This document shows, in pieces, positions 675 to 27,860 of a stretch of 64,000 nucleotides of DNA (position 1 is the stretch's first letter; every line of letters starts with the position of its first letter). Location: the NCBI RefSeq assembly GCF_000018865.1, contig NC_010175.1, positions 5,146,001-5,210,000 on the forward strand, read 5' to 3'. The stretch comes from Chloroflexus aurantiacus J-10-fl (GTDB lineage Bacteria; Chloroflexota; Chloroflexia; Chloroflexales; Chloroflexaceae). Position numbers and translations under genes: made by a program. The notes under the pieces are model-generated. The model made no database searches, was not told where the DNA came from, and worked only from the letters and a program-made list of their open reading frames with translations.

Positions 675-3056
675 ATGGAACACCTGTTTGCCAGCACCTA
701 TGGCTACTTTCGAGCCGATGGACGGGAATACGTGATCACGACTCCCTTCACCCCCCGCCCCTGGGGGAACGTGATCAGTAATGGCGACTACGCGATGATG
801 GTGTCGCAAACCGGATCGGGTTATAGCTGGCGCAACAATGCCGGTCAAAACCGGATTACCCGTTCATTTCAAGACCTGATTCAGGACAACTGGGGAAAAT
901 ATCTGTACCTGCGCGATCTCGACAGCGGGCAGTATTGGGCGGCCACGTACAAACCAACCTGTCATCAGTACGATCACTATCAGGTCAGGCACGGCCTGGG
1001 CTATTCATCGTTTGAACAGATCGTACAAGGCATTCACAGCATCCTGACCGTCTTTGTCGCCCCAGATGATCCGGTCGAAATCTTTCAGCTTACCCTCACC
1101 AATCAGAGTGATCGTCAGCGGCGTCTTGACATTACCTCATACGTCGAATGGCTGCTGGGTTTTGCCCCTGATGAACACCGTGAGTTTCACAAATTATTTA
1201 TTGAGACGACGCCTGAGCCGGAGTTTCATGCGTTGCTGGCGCGCAAATATCTGTGGGGGTTTGCCGATGAACTGGGGCGCCACAATAATATTGACTGGCC
1301 CTATGTAGCATTTATGGCCGTCAGTGAACCGCTGAAGAGCTTCGATGGCGATAAAGAGTCGTTTATCGGTCTGTATTCCAGTCTTGAACACCCCCAGGCA
1401 ATGCAGCAACCAACGCTAGCTGGGCGTAGTGGTCGCTTCGGCGATGCGATTGCCGCTCTTCAGGTTGAAATCACGCTAGCACCGGGCGAACGTCGCACAG
1501 TGGTCTTTACGCTGGGGGCTGCACTGCAGGGAAGTGAAGACCCTCTCGCGCTCATTCAACGCTATACGTCAGTTACTGCAAGTGATCAGACGTTACAGGC
1601 CGTGCATGCTTTTTGGTCGCGACTGGTTGATGCCGAGCACGTTGAGACACCTGATCCGGCCCTCAATCTGATGACCAATTACTGGCTGAAGTACCAGGCG
1701 ATCTCTGGGCGATTGTGGGGAAAATCGGCCTTTTACCAGGTTTCAGCCGGCTACGGGTTCCGTGATCAACTACAAGACTGCCAGATATTTCTGGTCTGCG
1801 ATCCGGCATTAGCCAAACGACAAATCCTCCTGCACGCTGCCCAGCAATTTGTCGAAGGCGATGTGTTGCACTGGTGGTTCTCGATTCGCGGTGGTGGACC
1901 ACGCACCAATTGTTCAGACGATCTACTCTGGCTACCTTTTGTGGTTGACAGCTACCTGCAAGAGACCGGTGATGTCGCTATTCTCGACGAAATGGTACCG
2001 TATTTGAACGGCCCGGCGGAGCCGCTCTACCTGCACTGCAAACGAGCGATTGAACGCGCGTTCAGTCGTTTCTCGCCACGAGGGATTCCGCTGATGGGTG
2101 ATCACGACTGGAACGATGGCCTCAACGCAGTCGGCACCCAGTTGCGCGGCGAGAGTTTCTGGGTGGCCGAATTTCTCTACACTATTCTCGAACGCTGGAT
2201 TCCACTGGCGCAACAACGGTCAGATGAAGCATTTGCCGAACGCTGCACTGCCGTGCGCACCACCTTACGGTGGGCAATGAATCGCTATGGCTGGGATGGA
2301 GAGTGGTTTTTGCAAGCCACCACCGATGCCGGCCTGCCACTAGGCTCACAGCAAAATGAAGAGGGGCGCATCTTCTTGATGCCCAATATCTGGGCCGTTA
2401 TCAGTGGCATCACCGATCAGCAACGGGCATGGCAGGCAATGCAGGCAGTGAGTCGTTACCTGCTGTGCGACTACGGAACCCTGCTCAATTATCCTGCCTT
2501 TACGCGCCCCCGTTCCGACATCGGTTATGTAACCCGTTATGCGCCAGGATTACGTGAAAACGGTGGGGTCTATACCCACGCCGCTACCTGGTCGGTATGG
2601 GCATATGCCCTGCTTGGTGATGTCGACCATGCCTACGAAGCGTACCGTCGCATTTGTCCACCCAATCGCAGTGCCGACATTGAACGCTACAAAGCCGAAC
2701 CCTACGTGACGCCGGGCAATATTGATGGGCCGCAATCTCCATACTTTGGTCGTGGTGGATGGACGTGGTATACCGGTTCAGCGCAGTGGCTCCACCGCGT
2801 TGCAACACACTGGATTTTGGGCATCCGGCCCCAGATCGAGGGGTTACTGATCGATCCACTCATCCCGGCCACCTGGGAACGCTTTACCGTGCGGCGAACG
2901 TTTCGCGGTGCAATCTACGAGATCGAGGTACTCAATCCAAACCACGTCAATCGTGGGGTCATTTCACTCGAAGTTGATGGTCAACCACTCGCCGGAACGG
3001 TCATCCCGGCATTCAATGATGGGCAAACGCATTCCGTGCGGGTGGTGTTGGGCTAA
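675..3056 (+). CDS. GH94 glycoside phosphorylase (cellobiose-phosphorylase-like)
   Basis: Predicted cytoplasmic inverting phosphorylase of family GH94, which splits a beta-glucoside with phosphate to give a sugar 1-phosphate. The 793-residue length fits cellobiose or chitobiose phosphorylase (about 800) better than the 1,2-beta-oligoglucan phosphorylases (about 1,100). The N-terminal beta-sandwich begins with YGYFRADGREYVITTP. The catalytic (alpha/alpha)6 barrel carries the DWND motif (D478-D481) that holds the general acid in this family, and the C-terminus (NPNHVNRGV, then FNDGQTHSVRV) closely resembles cellobiose phosphorylase. The GESFWV stretch and the SDDLLWLP motif are also found in laminaribiose- and sophorose-acting GH94 members. 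Linkage specificity is therefore open; the GH144 neighbours argue for beta-1,2-linked substrates. It is the first gene of the operon, with only a weak ribosome binding site. Confidence 0.88.
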   Translation: MEHLFASTYGYFRADGREYVITTPFTPRPWGNVISNGDYAMMVSQTGSGYSWRNNAGQNRITRSFQDLIQDNWGKYLYLRDLDSGQYWAATYKPTCHQYDHYQVRHGLGYSSFEQIVQGIHSILTVFVAPDDPVEIFQLTLTNQSDRQRRLDITSYVEWLLGFAPDEHREFHKLFIETTPEPEFHALLARKYLWGFADELGRHNNIDWPYVAFMAVSEPLKSFDGDKESFIGLYSSLEHPQAMQQPTLAGRSGRFGDAIAALQVEITLAPGERRTVVFTLGAALQGSEDPLALIQRYTSVTASDQTLQAVHAFWSRLVDAEHVETPDPALNLMTNYWLKYQAISGRLWGKSAFYQVSAGYGFRDQLQDCQIFLVCDPALAKRQILLHAAQQFVEGDVLHWWFSIRGGGPRTNCSDDLLWLPFVVDSYLQETGDVAILDEMVPYLNGPAEPLYLHCKRAIERAFSRFSPRGIPLMGDHDWNDGLNAVGTQLRGESFWVAEFLYTILERWIPLAQQRSDEAFAERCTAVRTTLRWAMNRYGWDGEWFLQATTDAGLPLGSQQNEEGRIFLMPNIWAVISGITDQQRAWQAMQAVSRYLLCDYGTLLNYPAFTRPRSDIGYVTRYAPGLRENGGVYTHAATWSVWAYALLGDVDHAYEAYRRICPPNRSADIERYKAEPYVTPGNIDGPQSPYFGRGGWTWYTGSAQWLHRVATHWILGIRPQIEGLLIDPLIPATWERFTVRRTFRGAIYEIEVLNPNHVNRGVISLEVDGQPLAGTVIPAFNDGQTHSVRVVLG

Positions 3057-3152: not shown

Positions 3153-4613
3153 ATGAAAGCATTTGCCAAAGGGGGAATCGTGCTGGTGCTGGTCTTGATG
3201 TTGAGTGGACTGGCCGGCTGTACATCAGCTCCGACAGCACCAGCCGAACAGCCGACGCAGGCACCAACCACCGCTGCCCAAGCACCGACCGCAGCACCAA
3301 CAACAGCACCTGCGACCGAACCGTCACCGGTTACCACTGACAGACAACCCGTTACCCTGCGTTACGCCAACTGGAACCTTGGCACCGAAGAAGAGAACAA
3401 CATTCAGCGTCGCCTGGTTAAGGCGTATATGGAACTCAACCCCCACGTGACCATCGAGTTTGTCGATATGTCCGGCGGTGGTTGGGATGATATGCTCAAC
3501 ACCTATGCGGCTCGCGGTGAATTGCCCGATGTCTTCATGGCGAACAATATGCCGCTCTACGTGAAAAACGGCTGGCTGGCCGATCTCACATCACTGGTAG
3601 AAAACGATCCCGATTGGCCATTGATCCCTGAAGTATTACGTTCGGGCGTGACCTACAATGGCCGCGTCATGGGATTACCAGCCGCGCAGTTTATCATGGG
3701 CTATTTTGTGAATCGCGATCTCTACGAAGCGGCCAACCTCGATGCACCTGAATACGGCTTTAGCGTCGAGGAGTTCAACACCGCCGTCACCAGCCTGCAC
3801 AACCCGGCCCGTGGTATCCTGGGGCTTGACGAGATGGAATTTGTGATGGGCTGGTACCCCCATGTGCTCGACAACAATTTGCAATGGTTTAGCTTCGATG
3901 GGGTCCACATGAACTACAATTCGGCTGCCTTCAAGGAGACCGTAGCCAAAGTTGCAGAGTTGAAACCCTATACCTGGCAGGGTCTCACCGACGAGCAAAA
4001 GCCGAATTTCAAGTCAGCCGGCCCATGGGAGCTGTTCCTGAACCAGGAAGTAGGCATGCGCTGGGAAGGCGGATGGGCTATTCCGCAGATTGCACAAAAC
4101 GCCACCTTCGATTGGGATTTCGTCGGCATCCCTGGTGGTAATCAGGCCATCGTTATGGATATTATCGTGGTCTCCAAGACGGCGCCGAACCTGGAAGAAG
4201 CCTACCAGTTTGCCCGTTGGATGACCTTCTCGCGCGCTGCCTACGCCAAAGAGGTTGAGCTGGCCCGCGAGATGGGCAGTGTGCCGAGCAAGATGCCGGT
4301 CGCGGTGGACGACGAATCTATCCAGTTGTATCGCCAGTTCTTCGACAAACCGGGTATCAATGCGGCCCTTGCCAACCTGGACAACAGCCTGGTAGAGTCG
4401 CTGGCCAAGATCGTACCGGGCTATATCCAGGCCCGCTGGGAGGGTAAGCCGGGGATCGACATCGGTGAAGACAAGGATGTGAACATGTGGTTCATGTTCT
4501 TCCGCGCTGCCGATGGTATCTACAAATACGAAGATTACGCAGCCCAACTGGAAACCTTTGCCAACAACCTGCTCGACTCGGCACGGGCTGAGGTTGAATC
4601 GGCATTGAAGTAG
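3153..4613 (+). CDS. Sugar ABC transporter solute-binding lipoprotein
   Basis: Extracytoplasmic sugar-binding protein of the family 1 (MalE-like) group, 486 residues. Residues 1-23 are a lipoprotein signal with lipobox LAGC (Cys23), followed by a Thr/Pro/Ala-rich linker to about residue 60. The mature domain opens with a beta strand (VTLRYANWN) and shows features of this class such as [13 protein letters not shown] and [12 protein letters not shown]. An AAGGAGGAG ribosome binding site at 3140-3148 fixes the start. It probably serves one of the two permease pairs downstream. The sugar is unknown, but the family position and neighbours fit a beta-gluco-oligosaccharide; in Listeria innocua a binding protein beside GH94 and GH3 genes takes sophoro-oligosaccharides. 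Confidence 0.93.
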
Positions 4614-4624
4614 TCAGGATCACG

Positions 4625-4656
4625 TAAGGTGAGGGTACTATTGTGCCCTCACCTTA
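4625..4656 (+). promoter_or_regulatory. Intercistronic hairpin after the binding-protein gene
   Basis: A 14-bp stem (4625-4638 with 4643-4656, one G-T pair) closed by the loop TATT starts 12 bp after the stop codon. No T-run follows. Such hairpins behind the first binding-protein gene of a transporter operon commonly stabilise the upstream message so that the binding protein is made in excess; a full terminator would cut off the rest of the operon. Confidence 0.65.
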
Positions 4657-4700
4657 TCACAGAGCAGACAGACGCTCAAGCCATGGTATCGCGAGGCACC

Positions 4701-7541
4701 ATGAACGCTCATCTCATGCTGCGAACAATCCAGATCATACTGGTGGTTGGACTTATCGGGTCACTGAACCCGGCGCTAGTTTGGGCCGATAGCGGACTGC
4801 GAGCACCCATCGAGGTGCGTGCCAGCACTTTCGGGTATCCAACGGGCACACATCCGCTCGCCGCACACTATCCGAAGCCCAGTGTTGCCTTGCAAAACGG
4901 TGATCAGATATCGTTCACCGTTGATATACCCCAGGCCGGGGAATATACGCTGGCAATCGACGCGGTGGTGCCTGAAGAGGTTATGTTCCTGCCACCAGAA
5001 GCCCTCGTCCAGATTGATGGGCACGCTGAACACTGGCGCCTGATCTTCCCGCTCTTTTACCAGGATACCGTCGATACATTTCCGGTTGATCGTTACGGTA
5101 ACGAAACGCTAATCCCACAAGCCCGATTGACGCGCTGGAGTCAGGTTTTCCTGCGCGATGTCAGTTTCAGCCAACCGTACCCGACCGTTATCTCGCTACC
5201 GGCAGGCCAACAACGGTTTCGGTTATCGATCCACGAAGCACCGGTGGTTATTGGCAGTATCTACCTGATTCCGGCTACTCGTTACCCAGGCTACGTTGAA
5301 TATCAGCGCGAACGACAGGCAGCGGCTACCACAGGCGTACTCATCGAACTTGAGGCAGAAAAACCGAGCTACAAAAATGACACCGCTATCCGTCCGATCA
5401 GCCGGCAAAACCTGGAGGTAACACCCTATGATCCGTACCGCTCCCGATTAAATGTGATTGGGGGTGAGAGCTGGGATCAGAGTGGCACAACCGTCTATTA
5501 TGAGTTTACCGTCCCTCAAGATGGCTGGTACAACATTACCTTACGTGCGATCCAGGATTATAAGAACAACTTTACCGTTTATCGCCGCATCCTCATCGAT
5601 GATCGCGTGCTGTTTGCAGAACTAAACGCGGTGCCCTTCAATTACGATCCGGTCTGGCGCAACTACACGCTCGGTGGTGAAACACCCTACCAGATTTATC
5701 TCACACGTGGCAGCCATGTACTTGGGATCGAAGCGACAACTGCCCCATACCACGACTCGATTCAGCGGGTGCGGGTCGGGTTAAGAGCCATCGCCGATAT
5801 TGCCTTTGAAATCAAACGGCTCACCGGCAACCAGATCGACATCTACAAAGAGTGGGAGATTGCTGACTACATCCCTGATATTCGCGAACGATTGCTTACG
5901 CTGGCCGATCAATTGCGTGCCGACCAGCAAACCCTGCTGGCCGTCAATCAGACGCCGGCTTCACCGGAAGTGCTTGCCTATCAGATGGCAATCGACAATC
6001 TCATGATCCTTGCCCAAGACCCCAACCGGATTCCGGTACGCATGAGCCGTCTCTCGGAAGGGGCCGGTTCGGCAGCCCAACTACTGGGCAGCATTCTGCC
6101 CTCATTGCAGAGCCAGCCATTGGCGATTGACAAAATCTACATCCATTCGCCTGACATAATTCCGCCCGAACCCACAATTTCGGTTAGCGCTATCGCTTTT
6201 GACTGGATGCAACGTTTTATTGCCTCTTTCCGCAGCGATCCCTATCAGAGCATCGGTGCTGCACCTGATGAACTAGAGGTTTGGGTCAATCGTCCACAAC
6301 AATACGTCAACCTGCTTCAGCAACTCACCGACAAGTACTTTACTCCGCAGACCGGCATCAAGGTGAAATTCTCGATCATGCCAAACGAGTCAAAACTCGT
6401 GCTGGCCTGTGCCGCCGGTACCCAACCCGACATCGCCCTCGGTGTCAGCACCAATATTCCCTACGAGCTGGCAATCCGCAATGCCCTGTACGATCTGCGC
6501 CAGTTTCCCGATTTTGATCGCTTCATCCGCATCTACGCGCCCGGTTCATTGCTCAGCTACATCATCGATCAGTCGGTCTACGCCATCCCGGAAACGCAGG
6601 ATTTCTGGGTAACGTATTACCGCAAAGATGTGCTCGAACGTCTTGGGTTGCCGGTACCGCAAACGTGGGATGAGGTACTTGAGATTCTGCCCGAATTGCA
6701 GCGGTATGGGATGAACTACAACACTGCCCTGTCGAGCGGTAGCGGTTTGAAGGGGTATCTGGTGACTGCCCCCTATCTTTTGAACCACGGAGCCTCGCTC
6801 TACACCCAGGAAGGATTGTCAGGACTGGGAACCGATGAAGCGATCCGGGCTATTCGCTTCATGGCCGAGAGCTTTACGATCTACGGCATGCCGCTGACAA
6901 CATCCAGCTTCTACGAGAGTTTTCGGTCTGGCGAATTACCAATTGGTATCTCCAATTTTGAAACCTACCTCAAACTACTCACCGCTGCACCTGAAATTGA
7001 TGGCCTGTGGGATATTGCGCTGTATCCGGCAACTGTGTTGCCGGATGGCCGTCAGCTTCGCTACGCCACCGGATCGGCTCAGGCAGCCATGATGTTTGCC
7101 AACACCGATAAAGCGACAGAGGGTTGGACATTTCTCAAATGGTGGATGTCCACCGAAACGCAGGTCATGTTCCAGCAAGAACTCATCATGAACTACGGGC
7201 TTGAATACCTGTGGAATCCGGCAAACCTGGAAGCCTTCCGCTTCACGCCAATTCCCTCTGCCCATCGCGACATCATCTTGCAGCAGTGGCAATGGCTCCA
7301 GGAACCGGTAAAGTTACCGGGCAGTTATATGCAAGAGCGAGAGTTGAGCAACGTCTGGAATCGAATTGTCTTCGACGGTGCCAATCCACGAGCAGCGATT
7401 GATAATGCAGTAACTGTCATTAATCGCGAAATTGTGCGCAAAATGACCGAGTTCGGCTACATTCGCAATGGCGAACGGGTGCGCACCTTCACTATTCCAA
7501 CCATCGATCTGGTAAAGGAGTGGATGGACAATGCGCAATGA
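4701..7541 (+). CDS. Giant secreted solute-binding protein with N-terminal carbohydrate-binding-like modules
   Basis: A 946-residue exported protein in which a sugar-binding domain is joined to extra modules. Residues 1-28 are a signal peptide ending LNPALVWA. Two beta-sandwich, jelly-roll-like modules follow (about 30-210 and 213-375; the second opens [10 protein letters not shown] and has [18 protein letters not shown]), resembling carbohydrate-binding modules. A helical linker (about 385-500) precedes a family 1 solute-binding domain (about 525-900; [39 protein letters not shown]). No lipobox Cys is present, so it must be held in another way. The longest frame opens at 4629 inside the 4625-4656 hairpin; ATG 4701 has a GAGG 4 bp upstream and begins a proper signal peptide. 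It overlaps the first permease by 11 bp. The usual length for such binding proteins is about 420-500, so the N-terminal half is an addition. Confidence 0.85.
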
Positions 7542-8445
7542 CCGGCAGACAACATGGAGCCGCTGGTGGTACAGGGAAGCCAGCGCCTACGGCTTCGTCG
7601 CACCGTATGCGTTGCTCTTCGCCATCTTTATCGCCATTCCGGTTCTGGCGGCGTTTCTGCTGTCGTTTACCTTCTTCGATTCGATTCAACCACCGCAATT
7701 TAACGGCTTGCTGAATTATATTGTGCTGTTAACTCAGGACGACATCTTTATGAAGTATGTCCTGCCCAATACGATTCAGTTTGCCGTCCTGGTCGGTCCA
7801 GGTGGGTACGTGCTGGCATTTTTACTGGCATGGATGCTGGCCCAATTGCCACGCATCCCGCGCACCATCTTTGCGCTCATCCTCTATTCGCCATCAATGA
7901 CGGCCGGCGTCGCAATGTCGGTCGTCTGGCAAACGCTGTTTAGCGGCGACCAGAATGGGTATCTCAACAGTTTCTTGCTTAGCCTGAACCTGATCCAGGC
8001 ACCGATACAATGGCTCCAATCACCGCAATACCTGATGACGATCATGATCATCGTTACCCTGTGGAGCAGTATGGGTGTCGGATTCCTGGCCATGCTGGCA
8101 GGGCTGCTGGACATTAACCCTGAGTTATACGAAGCCGGTGCCCTTGACGGCATTAGTAATCGCTGGCAAGAGATTTTCTACATTACCATCCCTTCGATGA
8201 AACCACAGATGCTGTTTGGGGCAGTAATGGCGATTGTCGGCACCTTTCAAGCCGGAGCAATTGGTGTTGCGCTGTCTGGCAGCAACCCCACACCGCAATA
8301 CGCCGGTCAACTGATTGTCAATCACATCGAAGACTACGGCTTTCTGCGCTACGAAATGGGCTACGCTGCGGCGGTTTCGGTCGTTCTGCTCTTGATGGTA
8401 TTGCTCTTCAATCGTCTGGCCAACAAACTGTTCCGAGAGGACTAA
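7531..8445 (+). CDS. Sugar ABC transporter permease (MalF/UgpA type), pair A
   Basis: Inner-membrane permease of 304 residues with about six hydrophobic segments. The cytoplasmic EAA loop that docks to the ATPase reads [11 protein letters not shown], about 100 residues before the C-terminus, as in binding-protein-dependent sugar importers. A short N-terminal arm ([17 protein letters not shown]) precedes the first membrane segment. AAAGGAG at 7514-7520 marks the start, which overlaps the binding-protein gene by 11 bp and implies translational coupling. It pairs with the next gene, and its position argues that this pair works with the large fusion binding protein. Confidence 0.92.
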
Positions 8446-8446: not shown

Positions 8447-9349
8447 ATGAGGCGTAAACGCTGGTTCAACTACAGCATGCGCGATAGCGGCATCAATCCA
8501 CGCGGTTTTCATCCCAGCCAGATCAAGTTCTATCTGGTGCTGGTACCGTTGTCGATTGTTATGCTCCTCCCCATCGTCTTTATCTTTTCCCATGCCTTCA
8601 AACCGCCAGAGGAGCTATTTGCCTATCCACCACGCTTCTTTGTGGTCAGACCAACCCTCAAGAATTTTACCGATCTCTTCGCCCGGCTATCGACCTCTGA
8701 GGTACCGGTCAGCCGTTATCTGTTCAACAGCATCATGGTCACCCTGATCACCGTGCTGGCCTCGCTGGCCGTCGGCTCAACAGCGGCGTTTGCGCTCTCG
8801 AAGAAGCGGTTTCGGCTGAAGGAGACCCTCTTTGCCATTAATACCGTTGCGCTGATGTTTGTTCCAGTTGCGGTTACCATTCCCCGCTTTCTCATCATTC
8901 AGCAGCTTGGCCTCTTAAATACGTTTTGGGTGCATATTTTGCCTGTCCTGGCGATGCCGGTGGGCCTGTTTCTCTTGAAACAGTTTATTGATGCGCTACC
9001 AAACGAAATGATTGAAGCAGCTCAAATCGACGGTGCCAGCGATTGGCAAATTTACTGGCATATCATTCTCCCGCTGACCCGACCGGCACTGGCAACCATT
9101 GCCATTCTGGCCTTCCAGGCCTCGTGGAACAACGTTGACACCTCAGCCATGTATATCAACGATGAGAATCTCAAGACCTTTGCCTTTTATCTCTCTACCC
9201 TCACTTCAACAACGGCAGGCGCAAATATTGTGGCCGGTCAAGGCATGGCGGCGGCGGCTTCGTTAATCATCTTTCTTCCCAACCTGATTATCTTCATCCT
9301 CCTGCAAAGCCAGGTGATGAGCACCATGTCGCATTCAGGATTGAAGTGA
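8447..9349 (+). CDS. Sugar ABC transporter permease (MalG/UgpE type), pair A
   Basis: Second permease of the pair, 300 residues, with about six membrane segments. The EAA loop reads [15 protein letters not shown], followed by [11 protein letters not shown], as in MalG-type subunits. It starts one base after the previous stop codon with an AGAGGA ribosome binding site. The C-terminal part contains a longer stretch rich in Thr and Ala ([17 protein letters not shown]) before the last helix. No ATPase gene accompanies it; a general sugar ATPase encoded elsewhere must energise it. Confidence 0.92.
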
Positions 9350-11364
9350 TGAAACGCTATCAGCTATTACTTGTAATAATTCTGTCGCTTTGGCTTGCGT
9401 GGTGGGCACCGTCTGCGCTGGCCGATACGCCTTACGTCACCTGGACGCCCGGCCCTGGTGGCGAGTTGTTCATGACGCAAGACGCCTACATTCCGGTTGA
9501 TGAGGTCAGGCTGCCGGTAACCGGGCCAGAAGACCTCTACATGACAACCAACGGCATGATCTACCTCGCCGATACCGGGAATGGACGGATTGTGCAGCTT
9601 ACTACCGATTACGACATTGTCGCCGAATATGGCAAGGGCGTGCTGGCCCGTCCAACTGGGGTCTTTGTTGATGACGAGGGCACCGTGTTCGTTGCCGATG
9701 CCGGTCTGAACCAGGTGGTGATCTTTGCTGCCGATGGTACGCTCCGCCAGCAGTTTGGCCGACCGCAAGAACCCCTCTTCGGCAAGCGACGTGAATTTTT
9801 GCCGCGCAAAATTGCCGTAGACAGGCGTAAAAACCTCTATATCATCAGCGAAGGTTCTGTCCAGGGCGTTATTCAACTGAATCCCGATGGACGTTTTATC
9901 GGTAACGTTGCAGCAAACACTGCTCAAATGTCGCTGCGGATGATCTTGCAGCGCATGTTTCTGAGTGAAGAACAACTTGCGCAACTGGTACGCAATGAAG
10001 CAGCTTCGCCATCGAATGTGATCATCGATCAGCAATCGATGCTTTACACAATCACAGCCAGCACCTTTCCTGATCAGAGTATTCGCAAATTTACCGTTGC
10101 CGGGCGCAATATTCTACCCCCGGTTTACGGCTCAACCTCGTTTCGCGATATTTACGTTGATCCGGCGGGATTACTGGTAACTGTTGATGGGGACGGGCGC
10201 ATTTTTGAATACGATAACAACGGCACCTTACTCTTTATGTTCAACGCCCGCGATAACGGCGATCAGCGACGCGGGACACTGATCAATCCGACCGGCATAG
10301 CGCGCTACAACGATACCATTTATGTCCTTGATAAGGATAAAAACGCATTGCTGGTCTATCGCGAAACGGCCTTCGCCAGCATTGTGCATCAGGCCATGCG
10401 GCTGTATCTGGCCGGCTTTTATCTGGAAGCACAGCCCTACTTCAACCAGGTGCTCAATTACAACGGCTCGTTCATCATGGCGTATCAGGGCATTGCCGAT
10501 GCAGCCTTCAGAGCAGGCGACTATCAGACGGCACTGACTGCATATCGCTACGCTGAAGATCGGATCGGCTACTCTGAAGCTTTTTGGGAGCTACGAAATA
10601 TCTTTTTACAGCGTTACCTCGGCCCTGCGATCATCGTTCTTGTGATCGGTGCCACTGCACAGCGCATCTTCCGCCACCTGGAACGACGGCATCACTGGCT
10701 CGATCCGGTGCGTGCCTCACTCCACACCATTCGCCGGTATCGCCTGGTGGACGACGCAGCATTTCTCTTCCGCTTCATCAGCAAGCCGGCTGACAGCTTC
10801 TCGTACATTAAAACCGGCGAGCGTGGTAGCCTCGGCTTTGCACTCGGCATCTATCTGTGGGTGATTGTGGTCTATGTGCTATCACTCTATCTGATGGGAT
10901 TTCCTTTTAATGCCTATGCCTATCCGAGCCAGATTCGGGTTGAAAACGAGATTATCGTGCCGATAGTTCTGCTTGGACTGTGGAATGTTGCCAATTATCT
11001 GGTTTCAACCATCAGCGATGGCGAAGGCCGAGTGCGTGATGTCGTGATTGGCACTGCCTACAGTCTCTTCCCCTACGCCCTCTTTATGCCGTTGGTGATT
11101 GCGCTCTCCAACGTGCTGACGCTCAATGAAGCCTTCTTAGTCTCCTTTTCGCAACAACTTATCTGGGGCTGGACGGGGTTGATGCTGTTTATTATGGTTC
11201 GCGAAATCCACAACTATACCCTTTCCGAAACTACAACAAACATCCTGCGCACACTTTTCACGATGGTCATGCTGAGTTTGACCGCATACATTCTCTATCT
11301 GCTCTTTGGGCAACTGATTGATTTTGTCGTCACGATCTGGCAGGAGATTGGGTTACGTGGATAA
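9349..11364 (+). CDS. NHL-propeller / TPR-like / YIP1-domain membrane protein
   Basis: A 671-residue protein of unknown function with an unusual three-part layout. Residues 1-25 are a signal peptide (ending PSALA). An NHL-type beta-propeller follows at about 55-330, with repeats such as [16 protein letters not shown] and [17 protein letters not shown] tetratricopeptide-like helical segment lies at about 345-410 ([27 protein letters not shown] is split across it). A membrane helix at about 422-440 leads to a C-terminal YIP1-type domain of about five helices (490-660). The propeller would be outside and the YIP1 part in the membrane. ATG 9349 shares its A with the preceding TGA stop, so the gene is coupled to permease pair A. 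A role as an accessory or sensing part of the transporter is inference; no catalytic motif was seen. Confidence 0.8.
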
Positions 11365-13489
11365 GATTATCAATATTCTCATTGTTGTAACACTATTTAT
11401 GACGTGTCAGCCGGTTGCACAAGCCGCAGGCTGGCAACGTGTGGTTCCTGACGGCTATGAACGAGTAGCGACCAACACCGGTTTCGAGCTGTATCTCAAC
11501 CGTGAAACGCTGGCGTTTAAGGTGCTTGACCGGCGCAGCGGTTACCTCTGGTCATCGAATCTGGACGAGGTCACGCCCGAAGATCGCCTCAATCGAAGCT
11601 GGACGGCCTTTGCCCGGAGTGGGATCAGCATTGAGTATATGGATAGCCGCGCCAATACGCGCCGGGCTTCGATCACAAATGCCGCCCATGAACTGGACAT
11701 CACGCTGATCAATAACGGCTTCAGGGGACAATTGACCTTTACTGAACCGGCGATCACACTCACCGTACAGGTCACACTCACAGCAGATGGGGTACAGATT
11801 GAGGTGCCGGCAAGTGGCATTGTTGAAGGCGGATCATTTCGGCTGGCGCAGCTACACCTCTACCCCTTCTTCGGTGCCACTCGCGCTGCCCAGACCCGTG
11901 GCTACATGCTGATCCCTGATGGAAGCGGTAGCCTGATCACCTTTGCCGAACAGACCAACGCCCGCACCATGTTTTACGGTCGCTACTACGGTGCCGATCT
12001 GGGGATGCGCGGATCATTCCCCAACAACCCCAATAGCCGTCCGCCATACCTGCTCTCGGCTCCGGTGTTCGGTATGGTGCATGGCGAGGGTCAGCATGCG
12101 TTCCTGAGTATTCTTGAACACGGATCGGCCTACGCCGAATTACAGGCCCATCCGGCGGGGATCATCACCCAATTCAATTTTCTCTACAACCTCTTCATCT
12201 ACAACGAGAGCTACTTTCAGCCGACCAACCGCGCCGGTAGCGGCGTCACCGTGATTCAACCGCAAACCAATACCTTCGACATTGTCCAGCACTACCACTT
12301 TCTGACCGGGCGCGAAGCCGACTATGTCGGACTGGCACGAGCCTATCAGCGCTTCCTCGTTGACCGGGGTGTCTTGCGGGCAATGCCTGCAACGCAGCGT
12401 GATCTGCCACTGCGGATCGAATTTTTAGGTGCTGAGCGTGAGCGTGTTCTCTTCTGGCAACGCGCCATTCCCATGACAACGATTGCCCACATGGAGGAGA
12501 TACTGGCGAGCTTGCCAACGCAACGGGTTGAAGCGACCTGCTACGGCTGGCAACCATTAGGCGCAACCGCACCACAACCGCTGACCCTCCGTATCGAAGG
12601 CGCCCTGGGGAGTCGAAATGATCTGATTGCCCTGGCCCAAACCATCACTGACCGGGGAGGGCACCTCAACCTGTACCTTGATCCACAAGCCGGTATTGTT
12701 GACGAGAGCGGCTACACTCGCAACGAGGTAGCAATGGCAATCAACAAAGCAATGCTCCAGGGCAACCATCGCGGGATGCAGCAACTCTACCTCAACCTGC
12801 CCGCAGTCGAACGACGCATCACCGCGCTGAAAACGGCAACGCGGGATTATAACCTGGGCCTGGCACTTGATGGGATTGGGTTTCGCCTCTATAGCGATTT
12901 TCGCAACGAAACCCGGCGCAACCGCGAGGCTATGATCCAGGCCTATCAGGAACTGCTCGCCGAGAACGGCCCCTTTGCCCTTTACCGGCCTAATGCGTAT
13001 CTGTGGCACGCCACCCGTGCTTACTACGACATGCCACTCGGCGATAGTGGCTACATCTACACATCCACAAGCGTGCCATTTCTGCCAATCGTTCTGGCCG
13101 GCTATATACCCTATTACGGGCCGGCACTCAATTTTTCGGCCAATGTCGAAGAAGATCTGCTGCGTCACGCCGACTATGGCGCATATCCATCATTCTTCCT
13201 GACCCACGAGCCAACCGCAGCCATGTTGAAAACCAACTCAAACTGGCTCTACACCTCGGCATACGCGCAATGGCGTGATGAAATTGAAAAGGCGTATACC
13301 TGGTTAGCAAAGCTGTTAGGACCGGTACAGGGTTCATCCATTGTGGCCCGTTCAGCACCCTTCCCTGGCGTCTCGATCACCGATTATGCGAATGGGAAAC
13401 GCATCATCGTAAACTACACGACTCGCCAGATAACCCTGGCCGGTACGACGATCCCACCCCGTGATGCGGTACTTATCGAACGACCGTGA
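11357..13489 (+). CDS. Secreted DUF5696-like protein of unknown function
   Basis: An exported protein of 710 residues. The chosen start is GTG 11357, inside the end of the previous gene (8-bp overlap), with AGGAGA at 11342-11347; it gives a clean signal peptide ([22 protein letters not shown]). The longer frame from 11318 would bury that signal. The N-terminal half is rich in beta structure and contains [15 protein letters not shown]; the C-terminal half looks alpha/beta, perhaps a TIM-barrel, with [29 protein letters not shown] split over its later strands. From memory, DUF5696 genes in Paenibacillus-like bacteria sit in the same order with YIP1 and two sugar permease pairs, which supports the family call. 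A glycoside-binding or glycosidase-like role fits the context, but no catalytic pair could be assigned. Confidence 0.7.
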
Positions 13490-13543: not shown

Positions 13544-14413
13544 ATGGCAAAGAGTGGCTTGAGACTACGCTTTCGTCTGCGTGAAAATATGCAGGGTTAT
13601 CGATTCATCATGCCCTGGCTGGTGGGATTTATCCTCTTCACGGCCACACCGCTGATACAGACATTTCAGTATAGCCTGAGCGATGTCCGAGTCGCGATTA
13701 CAGGTGTTGAGCTAACCGCAATTGGCTGGCAAAACTACACCCGTGCGCTCTTTACTGATCCAACGTTTGTGCAGCTTCTGATCGAATATATTATTGAGAC
13801 CAGTATTTCAGTACCGATTATTTTGATCTTTGCTATGATTATTGCCCTGTTTTTAAATGTCCCATTCTGGGGCCGCGGTCTTTTTCGCACAATCTTCTTT
13901 TTGCCGGTCGTCATTACCAGTGGCCCCGTTATCGGCGAACTGACCGCACAAGGAGCCACCGCCGCACCACAGATTGCTACTTCTGCGGTAGTAACCGGGT
14001 TTGTTGCTCAATTACCACCGTTACTGCGCGATCCGGTACAATATTTGCTCACATCTTTTATTCTCATTTTATGGTTTTCCGGTGTGCAGATTCTGATCTA
14101 TCTGGCCGGTTTGCAGAAAATAGACCGTTTTGTCTACGAAGCAGCCGCTGTCGATGGAGCATCAGCCTGGGAGATGTTCTGGAAGATCACGCTACCGTCG
14201 TTATCCACGACAACCCTGATAAATGCACTCTATACCGTGGTGACACTCTCCCATTTTTCAGAAAATAAAGTTGTCAAATACATCCATTCACGCATTTATG
14301 ATGTTGAAGGCGGGATCGGCTATGCCAGTGCAATGACCTTTCTTCATTCGCTGGCCCTGATCGGACTGTTGATCGCGACATTTCTGGTTCTCCGTCCGCG
14401 TACCCGGGATTAA
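13544..14413 (+). CDS. Sugar ABC transporter permease (MalF type), pair B
   Basis: Inner-membrane permease of 289 residues with about six hydrophobic segments. The EAA loop reads YEAAAVDGASAWEMFWKI, followed by TLPSL. A strong GAGGAGGAG ribosome binding site lies 5 bp before the ATG. Compared with pair A, it has a longer segment between helices 3 and 4 (GELTAQGATAAPQIATSAV). It is the first gene after a 54-bp spacer and forms a pair with the next gene. Which of the two binding proteins it serves cannot be told from sequence. Confidence 0.92.
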   Translation: MAKSGLRLRFRLRENMQGYRFIMPWLVGFILFTATPLIQTFQYSLSDVRVAITGVELTAIGWQNYTRALFTDPTFVQLLIEYIIETSISVPIILIFAMIIALFLNVPFWGRGLFRTIFFLPVVITSGPVIGELTAQGATAAPQIATSAVVTGFVAQLPPLLRDPVQYLLTSFILILWFSGVQILIYLAGLQKIDRFVYEAAAVDGASAWEMFWKITLPSLSTTTLINALYTVVTLSHFSENKVVKYIHSRIYDVEGGIGYASAMTFLHSLALIGLLIATFLVLRPRTRD

Positions 14414-14417: not shown

Positions 14418-15392
14418 ATGGATACCACCATCCGAACCCATACCAGTAAAAGGCACCGGATCATGCCACGGCTCCGCTTTGACTATCTATGGCGGATTTT
14501 GTGGGGAGTCCACAACCGGCCCGGCATCGTTCCGGTAAGCCTGTTGTACGCTGTTTTAACGGCAATCGGCTTTGTGTACCTCTACCCATTGCTGTTCATG
14601 GCGATTACCAGCTTCAAGAGTCCAGAGGATTTGTTGAATCCGATGGTGCAATGGGTACCGACACAGCTCTACCTGGGAAACTACATCAAGGCATGGCGCG
14701 TGCTCGATTACCTGGAAGCCTTGCGGGCGACCATTCTCGTCAGTATTGCGCCGACTACCCTCCAGGTCGTTGTCTGTGCGCTGATCGGCTACGGACTGGC
14801 CCGCTACCGGTTGTGGGGAAAATCGCTCCTCTTCGTGCTGATTTTTGCAACATTTGTGATCCCACCCCAGAACACCGTCATTCCCCAAATGCTTAATTAT
14901 CGGTATCTGAACCTGTTGGGGAATGGTCTGGCTCTGCTGATTCCGGCAGCACTGGGCCAGGGCTTCAAGAGCGCAATCTTCATTCTCATCTTCTACCAGA
15001 ACTTTCTCTCATTACCAAAGGCACTTGAAGAGGCAGCCCGTCTTGATGGTGCATCGGATCTCGGTATCTTCTGGCGGATTGCCCTTCCCGGCGCAACCCC
15101 GGCATTTATTGTCTCGTTCGTCTTTTCGGTGGTCTGGTACTGGAACGAGACCTACCTGACCACCGTGTTTCTGGAAGGAGGGATTCAGACACTCCCAATG
15201 CAGCTCGCCAAATTTACCCAGGCGTATGAAAACCTCTATCCATCGGGCATGGTTAATATGTTCGACCGCCTTAATGAAGCAGTCAAAATGAGTGGTACAT
15301 TTCTGACCATTTTGCCACTGCTGATTCTGTACTTTATCTTGCAACGTTGGTTTGTCGAATCGATTGAACGATCAGGACTGGCCGGTGAATAA
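14418..15392 (+). CDS. Sugar ABC transporter permease (MalG type), pair B
   Basis: Partner permease of 324 residues, with an N-terminal cytoplasmic tail of about 35 residues and about six membrane segments. The EAA loop reads EEAARLDGASDLGIFW, then RIALPGATPAF. The gene starts 4 bp after its partner; there is no convincing ribosome binding site at ATG 14418, and ATG 14463 (MPRLRFDYLW) is an alternative start. The operon thus carries two complete permease pairs, implying two importers or one importer plus a diverged pair. Confidence 0.9.
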   Translation: MDTTIRTHTSKRHRIMPRLRFDYLWRILWGVHNRPGIVPVSLLYAVLTAIGFVYLYPLLFMAITSFKSPEDLLNPMVQWVPTQLYLGNYIKAWRVLDYLEALRATILVSIAPTTLQVVVCALIGYGLARYRLWGKSLLFVLIFATFVIPPQNTVIPQMLNYRYLNLLGNGLALLIPAALGQGFKSAIFILIFYQNFLSLPKALEEAARLDGASDLGIFWRIALPGATPAFIVSFVFSVVWYWNETYLTTVFLEGGIQTLPMQLAKFTQAYENLYPSGMVNMFDRLNEAVKMSGTFLTILPLLILYFILQRWFVESIERSGLAGE

Positions 15393-16764
15393 ACTGCTTT
15401 TCTGGAATTTGCTGCTAGGGATCGCGTTATTGGTCACGGCGTGTTATGCACCGAATGAACAACGTCCAGTGCCAACGGCCAATCTCACGATCCCATCAAC
15501 CACTGCCGTATCTGTGCCGGAACCAACAATGCCTGCCCCAGCGCCAACGCCGACACCGGTGAATGATGAGGCGATCATCGCCTACGAGATGCAAGCAGCC
15601 TTCAGGTTTTTCTGGGAACAGGCAAACACCAACCCGGACAGTCCGGGGTATGGTTTGATCCGGGATCGCTATCCGGGATCGGCAGGCATCGCCAGCATTG
15701 CCGCGGTTGGGTTCGGCCTGAGTGCCATCATTGTCGGCGTCGAACGAGGGTATATCAGCTACGATCAGGGCTACGAGCGGGTGTTGGGCACATTACAGAC
15801 CCTTACTCGTATGGAGCGCGAGCAGGGTTTCTTCTACCACTTTGTTGACATGGAAAGTGGAAAACGGGCCTGGCAGAGCGAGGTCTCAAGTATTGATACC
15901 GCCATCTTAATGATGGGTGTATTATCGGTCGGTCAATACTTTGGGCATGATGTACAACAACTAGCCGACGAACTCTACGCCGGAGTAAACTGGGGCTGGT
16001 TCCTCGATCCTGACCGACAAATGTTTTACATGGCCTATCGGCCGGAAGAGGGTTTCAGCGGCCACTGGGATTTCTACGCCGAACAACTGATGCTCTACGT
16101 CCTGGCTGCCGGATCACCAACCTACCCGGTTGATGAGCGCCCGTATTACAGCTTCATCCGCCATGTTGGTCGTTACGGCAATGGTGAACCGTTCATTCAT
16201 TCGTGGTTCGGCTCACTGTTTACGTATCAATTCAGTCACGCCTGGATCGACTTCCGCAATCGGATCGATGCAAAGGGAGTCGATTGGTTTGCCAATTCGG
16301 TCGCCGCTTCACGTGCGCATTACGATTTTGCCGTCGCAATGGATGCGAAATACACCACGCTTGGCCCGAACGCCTGGGGACTGACCGCGTGTGACGGGCC
16401 GAATGGTTATGAAGGACGCTACGGGGCACCACCGTCAGGGTACGACAACCGGGCACATCTGATCGACGACACCGTGCCACCGGCGGGGGCGATTGGTTCG
16501 ATCATCTTTACTCCCGACGAATCGTTACAGGCAATGCGCTACTACTACTCGTTAGAACCCTTAAAAGGTGTGTATGGCTTCAACGATGCGTTCAACCTCA
16601 GCCGCAACTGGTATGCCACCGATGTTATCGGTATCGATAAAGGAATTTCACTGTTGATGCTGGCGAATTATCAAGACGGCTTAATCCACCGCATCACGAT
16701 GGCTCATCCTGCTATTCTGGCCGGACTAGAGCGACTTGGGATCGAACAGCTTCAGGAGGAGTAA
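15385..16764 (+). CDS. GH144-type endo-beta-1,2-glucanase, lipoprotein
   Basis: Probable cell-surface glucanase of the glycoamylase-like (PF10091) family GH144, which in characterised members cuts beta-1,2-glucan to sophoro-oligosaccharides. GTG 15385 overlaps the permease gene by 8 bp, has AGGA upstream, and starts a lipoprotein signal with lipobox LVTAC (Cys20); the longer frame from 15352 would spoil it. A Pro/Thr linker leads to the (alpha/alpha)6 catalytic domain from about residue 60 (AAFRFFWEQANTNPDSPGYG). The motif SEVSSIDTA carries acidic residues shared with the second copy at 17751, and the C-terminal part has NAWGLTACDGPNGY and IGIDKGISLLMLANY. At 459 residues it has the family's normal size. 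It would release oligosaccharides outside the membrane for the transporters upstream. Confidence 0.85.
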   Translation: MNKLLFWNLLLGIALLVTACYAPNEQRPVPTANLTIPSTTAVSVPEPTMPAPAPTPTPVNDEAIIAYEMQAAFRFFWEQANTNPDSPGYGLIRDRYPGSAGIASIAAVGFGLSAIIVGVERGYISYDQGYERVLGTLQTLTRMEREQGFFYHFVDMESGKRAWQSEVSSIDTAILMMGVLSVGQYFGHDVQQLADELYAGVNWGWFLDPDRQMFYMAYRPEEGFSGHWDFYAEQLMLYVLAAGSPTYPVDERPYYSFIRHVGRYGNGEPFIHSWFGSLFTYQFSHAWIDFRNRIDAKGVDWFANSVAASRAHYDFAVAMDAKYTTLGPNAWGLTACDGPNGYEGRYGAPPSGYDNRAHLIDDTVPPAGAIGSIIFTPDESLQAMRYYYSLEPLKGVYGFNDAFNLSRNWYATDVIGIDKGISLLMLANYQDGLIHRITMAHPAILAGLERLGIEQLQEE

Positions 16765-17747
16765 TGCCCACGATTAAAGATGTTGCACGTCGTGCCGGCG
16801 TTAGTGTAACGGCAGCCTCATATGCGCTTAACCGTACCGGGACGATTAGTGAAGAGACACGTCAACGGGTATTACAGGCAGCCGAAGAGTTAAACTACCA
16901 TCCCAATGCCTTCGCCCGTCATCTCAAAGCACGTCGTTCGCTTACCATCGGCGTGTTCATTACCCGCTTTGCCGGTGCGTTCTACGAAGAGATTCTCGAT
17001 GGGATTCACGAGGTTATTCTTGCGACCGATTATGAGTTAATCGTCTGTCCAGAAACGCGAGTCGAACGTCGTATTTTCACGCATCGCCAGGTTGATGGCG
17101 CCATCGTCTTCGACACCAGCATTCCGAACGAACAGATTCTCCGGCTGGCAGGGCCGAAATTCCCGATTGTCGTGATGGATCGGTACCTGGAAAATAAATT
17201 TGTCTTTCCCATCCTGCTCGATAACCGGCAAGGGGTTGTGCAGGCGTTCAACCATCTCTACCGCCAGGGTTTACGGCGATTGGCCTATATCGCCGGTGCC
17301 CCAGACTCGTTCGACAACAACGAGCGCATGCAAGCCTTTTTAAATGAGGCAACGCGCCACCACCTATCACTCCGGGTCTATCCCGGTAATTTTACCGAAC
17401 AGTCAGGATATGACGCTGCTCGTGCCATCATTGCTGATGGCGACTTACCTGAAGCGGTATTTTGCGCTAATGACCAGATGGCGATTGGCTTTATCCGGGC
17501 CATGCACGAACACGGCCTGGAAGCGCCTCGCGACATCGCTGTGGTTGGCTGCGACGACATTCAGATTGCACGCTACGTTCAACCACCACTGTCAACCATT
17601 GGCGCCTCACGGCGTGAATGGGGTGGAACCGCAGCCAAATGGCTCATGCGCTATATCGAACATGAAGAAACCTCACCACCGCAACGAATCCCGACAACCT
17701 TTATCGTCCGTGCCTCGTCATTGAAGCGACCTGAATTGTTGGAGTAA
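16764..17747 (+). CDS. LacI-family transcriptional regulator
   Basis: A 327-residue LacI/GalR-type repressor. The N-terminal helix-turn-helix is textbook (TIKDVARRAGVSVTAASYAL, residues 3-22), followed by the hinge region (HPNAFARHLKARRS) and a periplasmic-binding-protein-like sensor domain with AVFCANDQMAIGFIRAM and DIAVVGCDD. The ATG overlaps the glucanase stop codon by one base, with AGGAGG just upstream. It lies inside the operon between the two GH144 genes, so it is probably autoregulated through the operators at 485-498 and 590-603. The inducer is likely a short oligosaccharide such as sophorose or a monosaccharide; this is inference from context. Confidence 0.95.
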   Translation: MPTIKDVARRAGVSVTAASYALNRTGTISEETRQRVLQAAEELNYHPNAFARHLKARRSLTIGVFITRFAGAFYEEILDGIHEVILATDYELIVCPETRVERRIFTHRQVDGAIVFDTSIPNEQILRLAGPKFPIVVMDRYLENKFVFPILLDNRQGVVQAFNHLYRQGLRRLAYIAGAPDSFDNNERMQAFLNEATRHHLSLRVYPGNFTEQSGYDAARAIIADGDLPEAVFCANDQMAIGFIRAMHEHGLEAPRDIAVVGCDDIQIARYVQPPLSTIGASRREWGGTAAKWLMRYIEHEETSPPQRIPTTFIVRASSLKRPELLE

Positions 17748-17750: not shown

Positions 17751-18989
17751 GTGGACACGTACACTCTCCTCAACTACGAGCGTGAAGGTGCTATCAACTT
17801 TTTCCGAGCGGGTACCAATCTCGATCCGAACAGTCCAGGCTATGGTCTGACTGTCGATGCGTTGCATCGTCCGCAAATCGCCTCGATTGCGTCGGTAGGT
17901 TTTGCACTCAGCGCATGGGTAATCGCCGTCGAGTACGGCATGATGCCGCGCAACGAGGCGCTGAATCTGGTGCGGGGAACACTGCGCACCCTCTGGGAAC
18001 GAGTACCGCATCGATACGGTTTCTTTGCCCATTTTCTTGATCGCGATACCGCAGCCCGCTGGGGTCGCTGCGAATATTCCACCATCGATACGGCCCTGTG
18101 CCTGAATGGCGCCATCACGGCAGCCGCTTATTTTCACGATGCCGAAATCACCGAACTGACCGAACAGTTACTTGCCCGCATCGATTGGCACGCCTTTATC
18201 ACCGAATGTGATCAGCAAAAGGTGCTACGAATGTCGTACAACCCTGATGCTGATGGAGATTATGTCACAAATGAACCGGGATTCATCAGCGTTTGGGATA
18301 TGGCAGCCGAGCAGAAGATGATCTATCTGCAAGCGGCGTTACACCTCGACCCAACGACCGCACGTGCTCTCTACCGTGGCTTCCGCCGCGATAAAGGCGA
18401 TTATCGCGGGCAGTCGATCATTATCAATCCCGGCGGCACATTGTTTGCGTATCAGTACACCGAAGCCTGGCTCGATGTCCGTACCTATCGCGATCCAGAT
18501 GGTGTGGACTGGTTTACCAATACGCGCCTGGCTTCCATGGCCAATCGCGACTATTGTGTGAGCCTGCACGAGCGCTTTCGCACATATCACGCGAACAGTT
18601 GGGGGATCGGTTGCGGCGATACGCCGCGCGGTTATGTGGTAGCCGGCGCACCACCGGCCCTGATTCCACCTGAACCTGATGGCACAGTATCGATTAGCAA
18701 TGCAACTGCCTGTCTCCCATTCATCCCGGATGATGTGCTGGCAATGCTCGATTATCTCTATCGCGAGCACCCACAAAGCTATGGCCGATACGGTTTCTAC
18801 GACGCCTACAATCTCGACACGGTACCGGCCTGGTACAGTCACACCATCTATGGCATCAACAAGGGCTGTGCCCTCTTGATGCTGGAAAATGCCTGCACCG
18901 GATTAATCTGGGATATTTACACCAACAGCCCCATGATCCAACGCGCCCTGGCAGTGCTGGGGTTCACCCCGCAGCCATCAGCCCGCTAA
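17751..18989 (+). CDS. GH144-type protein, cytoplasmic
   Basis: A second member of the glycoamylase-like/GH144 family, 412 residues, paralogous to the lipoprotein at 15385. Shared stretches include NSPGYGLTVDAL, IASIASVGFALSAW, the EYSTIDTAL motif and the C-terminal YGINKGCALLMLENA. There is no signal peptide, so it should act inside the cell, shortening imported oligosaccharides. GTG 17751 is 3 bp after the LacI stop with GGAG 6 bp upstream. Exo-acting, sophorose-releasing relatives are known in this family, so an exo role is possible. It differs from the first copy by a longer segment rich in Pro (GAPPALIPPEPDG). Confidence 0.82.
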   Translation: MDTYTLLNYEREGAINFFRAGTNLDPNSPGYGLTVDALHRPQIASIASVGFALSAWVIAVEYGMMPRNEALNLVRGTLRTLWERVPHRYGFFAHFLDRDTAARWGRCEYSTIDTALCLNGAITAAAYFHDAEITELTEQLLARIDWHAFITECDQQKVLRMSYNPDADGDYVTNEPGFISVWDMAAEQKMIYLQAALHLDPTTARALYRGFRRDKGDYRGQSIIINPGGTLFAYQYTEAWLDVRTYRDPDGVDWFTNTRLASMANRDYCVSLHERFRTYHANSWGIGCGDTPRGYVVAGAPPALIPPEPDGTVSISNATACLPFIPDDVLAMLDYLYREHPQSYGRYGFYDAYNLDTVPAWYSHTIYGINKGCALLMLENACTGLIWDIYTNSPMIQRALAVLGFTPQPSAR

Positions 18990-27849: not shown

Positions 27850-27860
27850 CCACGTGGTTA

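Follow-up and report, generated by a model that had tools for sequence, protein, structure and literature searches.

What do two coupled genes, one encoding an NHL-propeller/YIP1 membrane protein (NHL-YIP1) and the other a DUF5696 protein, contribute to the ATP-binding cassette (ABC) importer between whose permease genes they lie in Chloroflexus aurantiacus J-10-fl? The question arises from a stretch of 64,000 nt (NC_010175.1, 5,146,001-5,210,000 of the forward strand), here called the window, whose own numbering is used for its coordinates. Judged by gene order, NHL-YIP1 and DUF5696 are linked across phyla to each other and to one of the two flanking permease pairs, termed pair B. The interpretation that we favor, with a probability of roughly 0.55, is that DUF5696 is a former glycosidase that serves as a glycan-handling subunit of a CUT1-type ABC importer, with NHL-YIP1 and DUF5696 as dedicated accessories and pair B as the channel. 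The genes concerned form a module of seven:

4629..7541, forward strand: SBPbig, the first gene of the module, a substrate-binding protein (SBP) of 970 residues with a C-terminal SBP domain (SBP_bac_8/1 at 563-848)
7531..8445, forward strand: permease A1 (PF00528), with a degenerate EAA loop, EAGALDG
8447..9349, forward strand: permease A2 (PF00528), EAA loop EAAQIDGAS
9349..11364, forward strand: NHL-TPR-YIP1 protein (NHL and Yip1 Pfam matches; predicted structure)
11357..13489, forward strand: DUF5696 protein (PF18952), with a fold like that of glycoside hydrolase (GH) family GH129 (predicted structure)
13544..14413, forward strand: permease B1 (BPD_transp_1), a core partner, EAA loop EAAAVDGAS
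14418..15392, forward strand: permease B2 (BPD_transp_1), a core partner, EAA loop EAARLDGAS

The sequence agrees with an earlier note on this DNA, which had placed the NHL-YIP1 and DUF5696 genes between two permease pairs with overlaps of one and eight bases. The stop codon of A2 (TGA, 9347-9349) and the start codon of NHL-YIP1 (ATG, 9349, preceded by an in-frame GTG at 9346) share one base within the TGATG at 9347-9351, and the GTG start of DUF5696 at 11357 lies inside the NHL-YIP1 gene, whose TAA ends at 11364. A further 54 bases, with GAGGAGGAG just ahead of B1, separate the end of DUF5696 from the start of that permease; in a genome of the same genus the corresponding gap is 0.9 kb (L037:8147-9075). 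In Pfam searches the NHL-YIP1 product matched NHL (E 1e-11) and Yip1 (PF04893, E 1.6e-8) above the cut-off and TPR below it, the DUF5696 product matched PF18952 at E 5e-164, and BPD_transp_1 (PF00528) was recovered in all four permeases, which carry EAA-like loops reading EAA in A2, B1 and B2 and EAG in A1. An N-terminal hydrophobic segment is present in both NHL-YIP1 and DUF5696, to each of which the earlier note had ascribed exported domains.

The distribution of this arrangement was surveyed in two sets of loci. A PF18952 search of 400 Chloroflexota genomes matched 45, 32 of them over the cut-off and 28 at E <1e-90; 17 of the 45, with weak matches (best E 1e-12 to 9e-4), were excluded from the 28, and 14 control genomes yielded two weak matches, neither of which reached the cut-off. 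In these genome-group searches scoring is confined to the top two to four candidates of each genome. Set 1 comprised 26 stretches from 25 Chloroflexota genomes (two of them weak matches), labelled with profiles derived from the window. Set 2 comprised 79 loci obtained by scanning genome contigs with a DUF5696 alignment profile, from the best 80 of 157 matches, and was drawn from Chloroflexota, Erysipelotrichaceae, Paenibacillus, Fictibacillus, Mahella, Fervidobacterium and another member of the Thermotogota, Lachnospiraceae, Oscillospiraceae and Acholeplasma/Izimaplasma-like genomes. The sets overlap in three contigs (L059, L076 and L133 being the same as L031, L032 and L040). Since both were found via DUF5696, they test its neighbors, and the reverse test was a search of the same genome groups for NHL-YIP1.

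All seven genes stand in the order SBPbig-A1-A2-NHL/YIP1-DUF5696-B1-B2 in 56 of the 79 loci of set 2. Counting testable cases, the neighbor was present in 77/78 loci for NHL/YIP1, 73/73 for B1, 68/69 for B2, 71/72 for A2, 65/68 for A1 and 64/67 for SBPbig; the odd cases were a B1 split over two open reading frames (L066), a short A2 with unlabelled sequence upstream (L079 and L089) and a DUF5696 frame that is shortened and lies 0.8 kb downstream of NHL-YIP1 (L126). Set 1 shows the NHL/YIP neighbor in 23 of 25 testable stretches, with L054 and L055 as the exceptions, and the full seven genes in 16 of 26, the remainder consisting of L054, L055, stretches cut by contig or region ends, L037, and L048, in which all seven are present as overlapping called reading frames. 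NHL and YIP1 are occasionally two adjacent genes (8/26 in set 1, 2/79 in set 2), and no gene fusing NHL-YIP1, DUF5696, permease, SBP or GH was found among the labelled open reading frames of the surveyed loci.

In the reverse direction, NHL-YIP1 was detected at E 2e-36 or better in 29 of the 400 Chloroflexota genomes, including all 28 with DUF5696, and the next-best match (E 1e-25) covered propeller repeats only. Among 299 Bacillota genomes it was found in 27, including all 26 with DUF5696. In the two additional genomes, G308 and G653, contig ends truncate the locus; that of the former (L163) still retains SBPbig-A1-A2-NHL. Fisher's test gave p 3e-42 (Chloroflexota) and 1.4e-36 (Bacillota) for the co-occurrence, values that ignore relatedness. 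Forty-three of the 46 DUF5696 copies listed in Bacillota have an adjoining NHL-YIP1 and the other three lie at contig starts; copies can be numerous, with 13 long matches and a fragment in Paenibacillus eucommiae (G409, the source of L137) and seven in P. contaminans (G410, the source of L113). Since the module is conserved across loci, we reject the notion that it is an oddity of a single genome. The neighborhood that the earlier note had associated with Paenibacillus is indeed found there in the scanned loci. The same note had named, as the outcome that would count against its proposal, a failure of DUF5696 and NHL-YIP1 to co-occur with such permeases elsewhere; instead, they co-occur and adjoin almost without exception in two phyla. 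The conserved linkage it had claimed across phyla extends over Chloroflexota, Bacillota, Thermotogota and Acholeplasma-like genomes, which share the gene order, and the near-total linkage to permeases supports its description of the two as an unknown transporter accessory pair.

Which permeases are the partners is indicated by a shorter version of the module. Of the 46 Bacillota copies, 32 could be paired with a listed NHL-YIP1 match by coordinates and the other 14 were fetched; three of these (L145, L147 and L151) begin at contig edges, and 11 (L139-L144, L146, L148-L150 and L152) have NHL-YIP1 directly adjoining DUF5696. None of these 11 loci has A1, A2 or SBPbig next to NHL-YIP1, and B1 and B2 follow downstream in ten, while L144 stops where its contig does; in L143 weak A1-like and SBPbig-like genes lie still further downstream. 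Scored with the B profiles, the permeases of ten loci (nine of the short variant and L159) reached 231-286 bits, against <=127 bits for the A profiles. In five of ten such loci (L139, L140, L143, L146 and L159) a scan of one or two neighbors per locus recovered an SBP of the ordinary kind close to the core. An insert of 160-200 residues behind window residue 132, seen in six aligned sequences, lengthens the DUF5696 of the short variant. Such long forms (922-967 residues, the insert lying in the N-terminal beta domain) are found in L139-L152 and L159-L161, and thus also in full seven-gene modules (L160 and L161). Given that the short variant lacks pair A and SBPbig, the constant set consists of NHL-YIP1, DUF5696, B1 and B2. 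Pair A, which the earlier note had put forward as the partner of the NHL protein, is accordingly rejected as the core partner, and its place is taken by pair B.

The AlphaFold2 model of NHL-YIP1 (predicted local distance difference test, pLDDT, 89; predicted template modelling score, pTM, 0.77) has a propeller at 32-340, TPR-like helices at 342-402, a long helix at 406-449 and more helices to the end. The protein thus runs from an N-terminal hydrophobic helix through a beta-propeller, TPR helices and the long helix to a multi-helix YIP1 membrane domain, Yip1 (PF04893) being recovered in the window protein and in 37/40 aligned relatives. The loop behind the first membrane helix contains 12 K/R and 6 D/E in 56 residues, which by the positive-inside rule places the propeller and TPR outside, and NHL-YIP1 is predicted to be a polytopic membrane protein of this orientation. 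The top Foldseek rows were NHL propellers, and no YIP1 relative from the PDB was present among the matches listed, which were filled by propeller and TPR. A precedent for a Yip1 family membrane protein in the service of an ABC transporter is offered by YknW of Bacillus, which the accessible text of PMC4887032 describes as an accessory of YknXYZ that modulates its assembly. That system differs in being an exporter (of SDP) with a MacB-like permease, and neither a propeller or TPR in YknW nor DUF5696 is mentioned in the same portion of the article.

The DUF5696 model, built from 46 sequences (pLDDT 92, pTM 0.92), consists of a beta-sandwich, a (beta/alpha)8 barrel and a small C-terminal beta domain, and has the fold of GH129. 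In Foldseek searches GH129 proteins came first over the whole chain (ZgGH129 at E 1e-30; template modelling scores 0.61-0.73), followed by GH101 and GH36; in VIA-align GH129 was again first (NagBb, Z 28.5, 561 aligned residues, 3.9 Å), with alpha-amylase barrels and GH36 following at Z <19. The relationship is also discernible in sequence, given that the DUF5696 family profile finds GH129 at E 1e-7 and 1e-5, and a GH129 protein of Paenibacillus (L167) aligns weakly to it (probability 69.5, E 4e-5). The window protein itself matches only PF18952 at E up to 0.01 and does not reach the cut-off of PF11308 (GH129), a family present in 1/199 genomes searched. Both Pfam families are matched by the proteins of L054 (8591-10435, 615 residues) and L055 (8451-10337, 629 residues), which come from the excluded weak matches, lie outside the module with no labelled NHL-YIP1 nearby (L055 has ABC permease-like genes upstream) and are possibly active enzymes. 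With E-values of 1.3e-24 against NagBb and 6e-18 against the DUF5696 profile, the L054 protein served as a bridge for mapping residues.

Through this bridge Asp435 of NagBb, equivalent to Asp486 of ZgGH129, falls on window residue D505, and a direct ZgGH129 profile alignment puts Asp486 at 506. The Glu of the Zg GTEHG motif (517, counted in the alignment) and the EE of NagBb SSEE fall on Y543/R544, and the window protein has no acid anywhere within 541-549. Asp is found at 505 in 24 of the 46 sequences (25 if 506 is included), and an acid at 543/544, always Glu, in five, the two occurring together in 2/46. Adding 15 long forms, to give 61 sequences, Asp and Glu coincide in 2/61 and Asp with any acid in 8/61, six of which are long forms. 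According to the available part of PMC5698469, replacement of Asp486, Glu517 and two more acids gave inactive ZgGH129, and the other catalytic residue of NagBb is not conserved in homologs of ZGAL_3152, so that the mechanism of GH129 is itself not uniform. DUF5696 thus shares with the GH129 glycosidases (NagBb, and ZGAL_3152/DagB, proposed as a separate family in the same part of that source) a whole-chain fold, a weak sequence kinship and, in about half of its members, the Asp; it differs in the rarity of an acid at the Glu position and in being tied to permease genes. On the basis of its model, DUF5696 has the GH129 fold, preceded by an N-terminal segment that is either an export signal or an anchor; in most members, the window protein among them, the GH129 Asp-Glu pair is absent. 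From sequence comparison we regard most of the family as non-catalytic and some members as possibly active.

In a (beta/alpha)8 barrel the C-terminal ends of the strands form the cleft. In L050 (8489-10936) and L051 (8859-11312) an insert with two hydrophobic stretches, of 81 residues in L050, occurs right after the equivalent of window residue 515, in the beta4-alpha4 loop, and a split PF18952 match of the kind such an insert gives was seen in five genomes of their genus. This hydrophobic hairpin suggests that the cleft of DUF5696 faces the membrane. A lipobox pattern in the first 70 residues is rare in DUF5696 (4/77), which is therefore probably held by its N-terminal helix or by partners; the corresponding counts are 5/63 for SBPbig, 3/71 for NHL-YIP1 and 40/55 for SBP1, the ordinary sugar-binding lipoprotein encoded upstream of SBPbig.

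Judged by its genes, the transporter would be an ABC importer of an established type to which two conserved, novel components are added. SBP1 and SBPbig belong to the SBP_bac_1/8 families and the permeases are paired BPD_transp_1 proteins with EAA loops, as in CUT1 importers of the MalEFGK2, UgpBAEC and GlcSTUV type. A MalK-type ATPase is not encoded in the operon; one PF17912 protein is found elsewhere in the genome, about 530 kb away, and in five Paenibacillus loci (L113, L114, L128, L136 and L137) the gene just ahead of SBPbig is a MalK-like reading frame. What sets the module apart from CUT1 systems is the YIP1-anchored propeller together with the GH129-fold protein, often two permease pairs, and an SBP of about 1000 residues; we know of no CUT1 importer with these components.

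From these features we infer a physical complex of NHL-YIP1, DUF5696 and the permeases, and a role of the complex in transport. The YIP1 domain would dock in the membrane beside pair B, the propeller and TPR that it anchors would form a platform outside, and DUF5696 would sit on this platform above the channel, the cleft of its former active site turned to the membrane, holding glycan chains and handing them to pair B. In the seven-gene version SBPbig and pair A would then provide an additional, optional path of entry, and a shared MalK-type ATPase would power both permease pairs. A bolder version, which we regard as tentative and doubtful, is that of a distinct class of ABC importer with an ex-glycosidase as a structural subunit, whose cleft, pressed to the membrane by the YIP1-anchored platform, would lie over pair B, where it would form a lid for long or cyclic glycans or guide their threading; the seven-gene form would then combine pair A, with its large carbohydrate-module SBP, and pair B, with its lid, into one four-permease machine.

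Several observations weigh against a glycan-handling subunit that has lost its activity, and some of them favor instead an active exported glycosidase or transglycosidase of a new GH129-related family, which would trim glycan at the membrane with NHL-YIP1 as its anchor, the linkage to permeases then reflecting substrate channelling and not a subunit function. Besides the whole GH129 fold of the model, the double Pfam matches of the L054 and L055 proteins and the carbohydrate-active enzyme (CAZyme) genes that adjoin the module, the window protein keeps D505, as do 24 of the 46 sequences. Of the long forms, 10/15 have Asp at 505/506 (nine of them at 506 and one at 505) and 11/15 carry an acid at 543/544 (5 Glu, 6 Asp); both positions are acidic in 6/15, always as Asp/Asp and never as Asp with Glu (0/15), and some members may thus be active. 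An acid is also frequent at 547 (20/46), and 188 and 606 are the only positions acidic in at least 90% of the 61 sequences (D188 in 60/61; D/E606 in 61/61, with 39 E and 22 D), the latter being placed away from the cleft if the order of secondary structure elements is a guide. Against enzymatic activity as the general function stand the rarity of the complete acid pair noted above, a Gly at 505 even in loci that carry GH144 (L086, L098 and L101), the constancy with which DUF5696 stays with pair B whatever GH families adjoin, and the 15 Chloroflexota group-2 loci, none of which has a gene labelled by the window GH profiles (nor was any GH present among the 25 families listed of 66 in 41 of their neighbors, many of which were housekeeping families). 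On balance we consider an active enzyme unlikely.

Other points bear on whether the linkage reflects a complex at all. In L159 the same four genes occur with NHL-YIP1 last, downstream of B2, and conserved gene order can reflect co-regulation. Distance correlations among module genes are mostly 0.90-0.98 (A1 giving 0.69-0.77 against the other permeases, DUF5696 and NHL-YIP1), and SBP1 and GH35 correlate as highly with the module, so that this mirror-tree test does not discriminate. That the module is merely a conserved operon of co-regulated exoproteins, with no physical partnership among them, nevertheless appears very improbable to us: many CAZyme operons are conserved, but the surrounding GHs and regulators change while the four core genes do not, and co-occurrence holds in 54/54 DUF5696 genomes of two phyla. 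Somewhat better placed, though still quite improbable, is a role of NHL-YIP1 as an assembly factor or sensor with DUF5696 as its extracellular ligand-binding partner, the two controlling assembly or activity of the importer while handling no cargo. Propeller and TPR folds, both predicted in NHL-YIP1, are often protein-binding, and the YknW precedent for YknXYZ (PMC4887032, in its accessible text) points the same way; however, the 22 families listed in a scan of 40 NHL-YIP1 proteins include no kinase or other output domain, and the sugar-enzyme fold of DUF5696 suits contact with glycan. We therefore retain the former glycosidase acting in glycan handling beside pair B as the favored interpretation.

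The cargo in the window is deduced from the adjoining enzymes, a further point to be set against this interpretation. The module is part of a single-strand run (675-23484) that encodes, outside the seven genes listed above:

675..3056, forward strand: GH94 phosphorylase, SOGP-like (PF17167, E 1e-116; PDB 8rf9/8rf0, E ~1e-162)
3153..4613, forward strand: SBP1, an ordinary sugar-binding lipoprotein (PF01547)
15352..16764, forward strand: GH144-type endo-beta-1,2-glucanase homolog with a lipobox-like VTAC (PF10091, E 1e-61; PDB 5gzh, E 7e-43)
16764..17747, forward strand: LacI-family regulator (PF00356)
17751..18989, forward strand: second GH144-type protein (PF10091, E 4e-76)
19008..21275, forward strand: GH35 protein (PF01301)
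21376..23484, forward strand: GH3 beta-glucosidase homolog, the final gene of the run (PF00933)

From these enzymes (GH94, two of GH144 type, GH35 and GH3) the operon is likely to serve the use of beta-1,2-glucan; the combination of GH144 and GH94 expected of a beta-1,2-glucan utilization locus is present. The first PF10091 protein matches a solved endo-beta-1,2-glucanase (5gzh), and the two PF10091 genes of the whole genome are both at this locus. The protein at 15352-16764 is probably a surface lipoprotein, as its VTAC suggests, and that at 17751-18989, in which no N-terminal signal was seen, is probably cytoplasmic; beta-1,2-glucan or its oligosaccharides would thus be cut outside by the former and finished inside by the latter with GH94, GH35 and GH3. 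An endo-beta-1,2-glucanase (SGL) of Chloroflexus aurantiacus, Chy400_4164, is employed as an enzyme in work reported in the accessible portion of PMC12102758, and is probably the ortholog of one of the two. The SBPbig family profile has Lin1841 (5ysb, E 1.4e-27) as its best PDB match, which we take to be the sophorooligosaccharide-binding protein of Listeria innocua, and the N-terminal part of SBPbig is CBM35-like in 6/38 relatives. Residues 22-486 of SBP1 are identical to five PDB entries (22hh, 22hi, 22hj, 22hk and 22hl), so that its structure is solved and the locus is evidently under study by others.

Comparable beta-1,2-glucan clusters, the SOGP cluster of Listeria innocua and IALB_1177-1187 of Ignavibacterium album, share GH94, GH144, GH35, GH3 and a sophorooligosaccharide-type SBP with the window, as far as the available text of PMC8861115 describes them; the same text includes a sophorooligosaccharide-binding protein in the SOGP cluster and identifies the GH35 of the Ignavibacterium cluster as a beta-1,2-glucosyltransferase. 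Unlike in the window, no YIP1 or DUF5696 protein is mentioned for these clusters in that part of the source. Across the surveyed loci GH144 was labelled in 32/79, and GH144 or GH94 in 41/79, many of these loci being cut. Among 56 neighbor proteins scanned from non-Chloroflexota loci without GH144 we found GH16 (11) as well as GH43, GH3, GH31, GH17 and GH130, and a second set of 43 yielded MalK-type ATPases (5), GH123, GH2 and GH16. As the neighboring GH families vary between loci, the module is not tied to one glycan.

Elsewhere in the window, convergent genes at 23534-29168 encode another ABC importer, with two BPD_transp_2 permeases, an ABC ATPase with two matched stretches and a PnrA-like binding protein, and a gene for a Uma2-type (PF05685) putative restriction endonuclease lies at 38517-39692.

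The earlier note had held such a complex to be undescribed, and we too found no publication on DUF5696 in the literature within reach of our search, which did not extend to preprints, most subscription papers and supplements; likewise no title or abstract opening on YIP1 family proteins concerned such a cluster. Importers of sugars that belong to the ABC type are a textbook subject, and yet the pair is present in about 7% of the Chloroflexota (28/400) and 9% of the Bacillota (26/299) genomes sampled. A role open to testing is thereby proposed for DUF5696 and for bacterial YIP1 proteins of this kind. If the pair is part of the importer, the set of genes needed to reconstitute such uptake changes, and DUF5696 would illustrate how a glycosidase fold can be taken over as a component of a transporter. 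Should the distinct importer class, tentative as it is, prove true, it would represent a major undescribed route of glycan uptake in Paenibacillus, rumen and other Bacillota, Acholeplasma-like bacteria and Chloroflexota.

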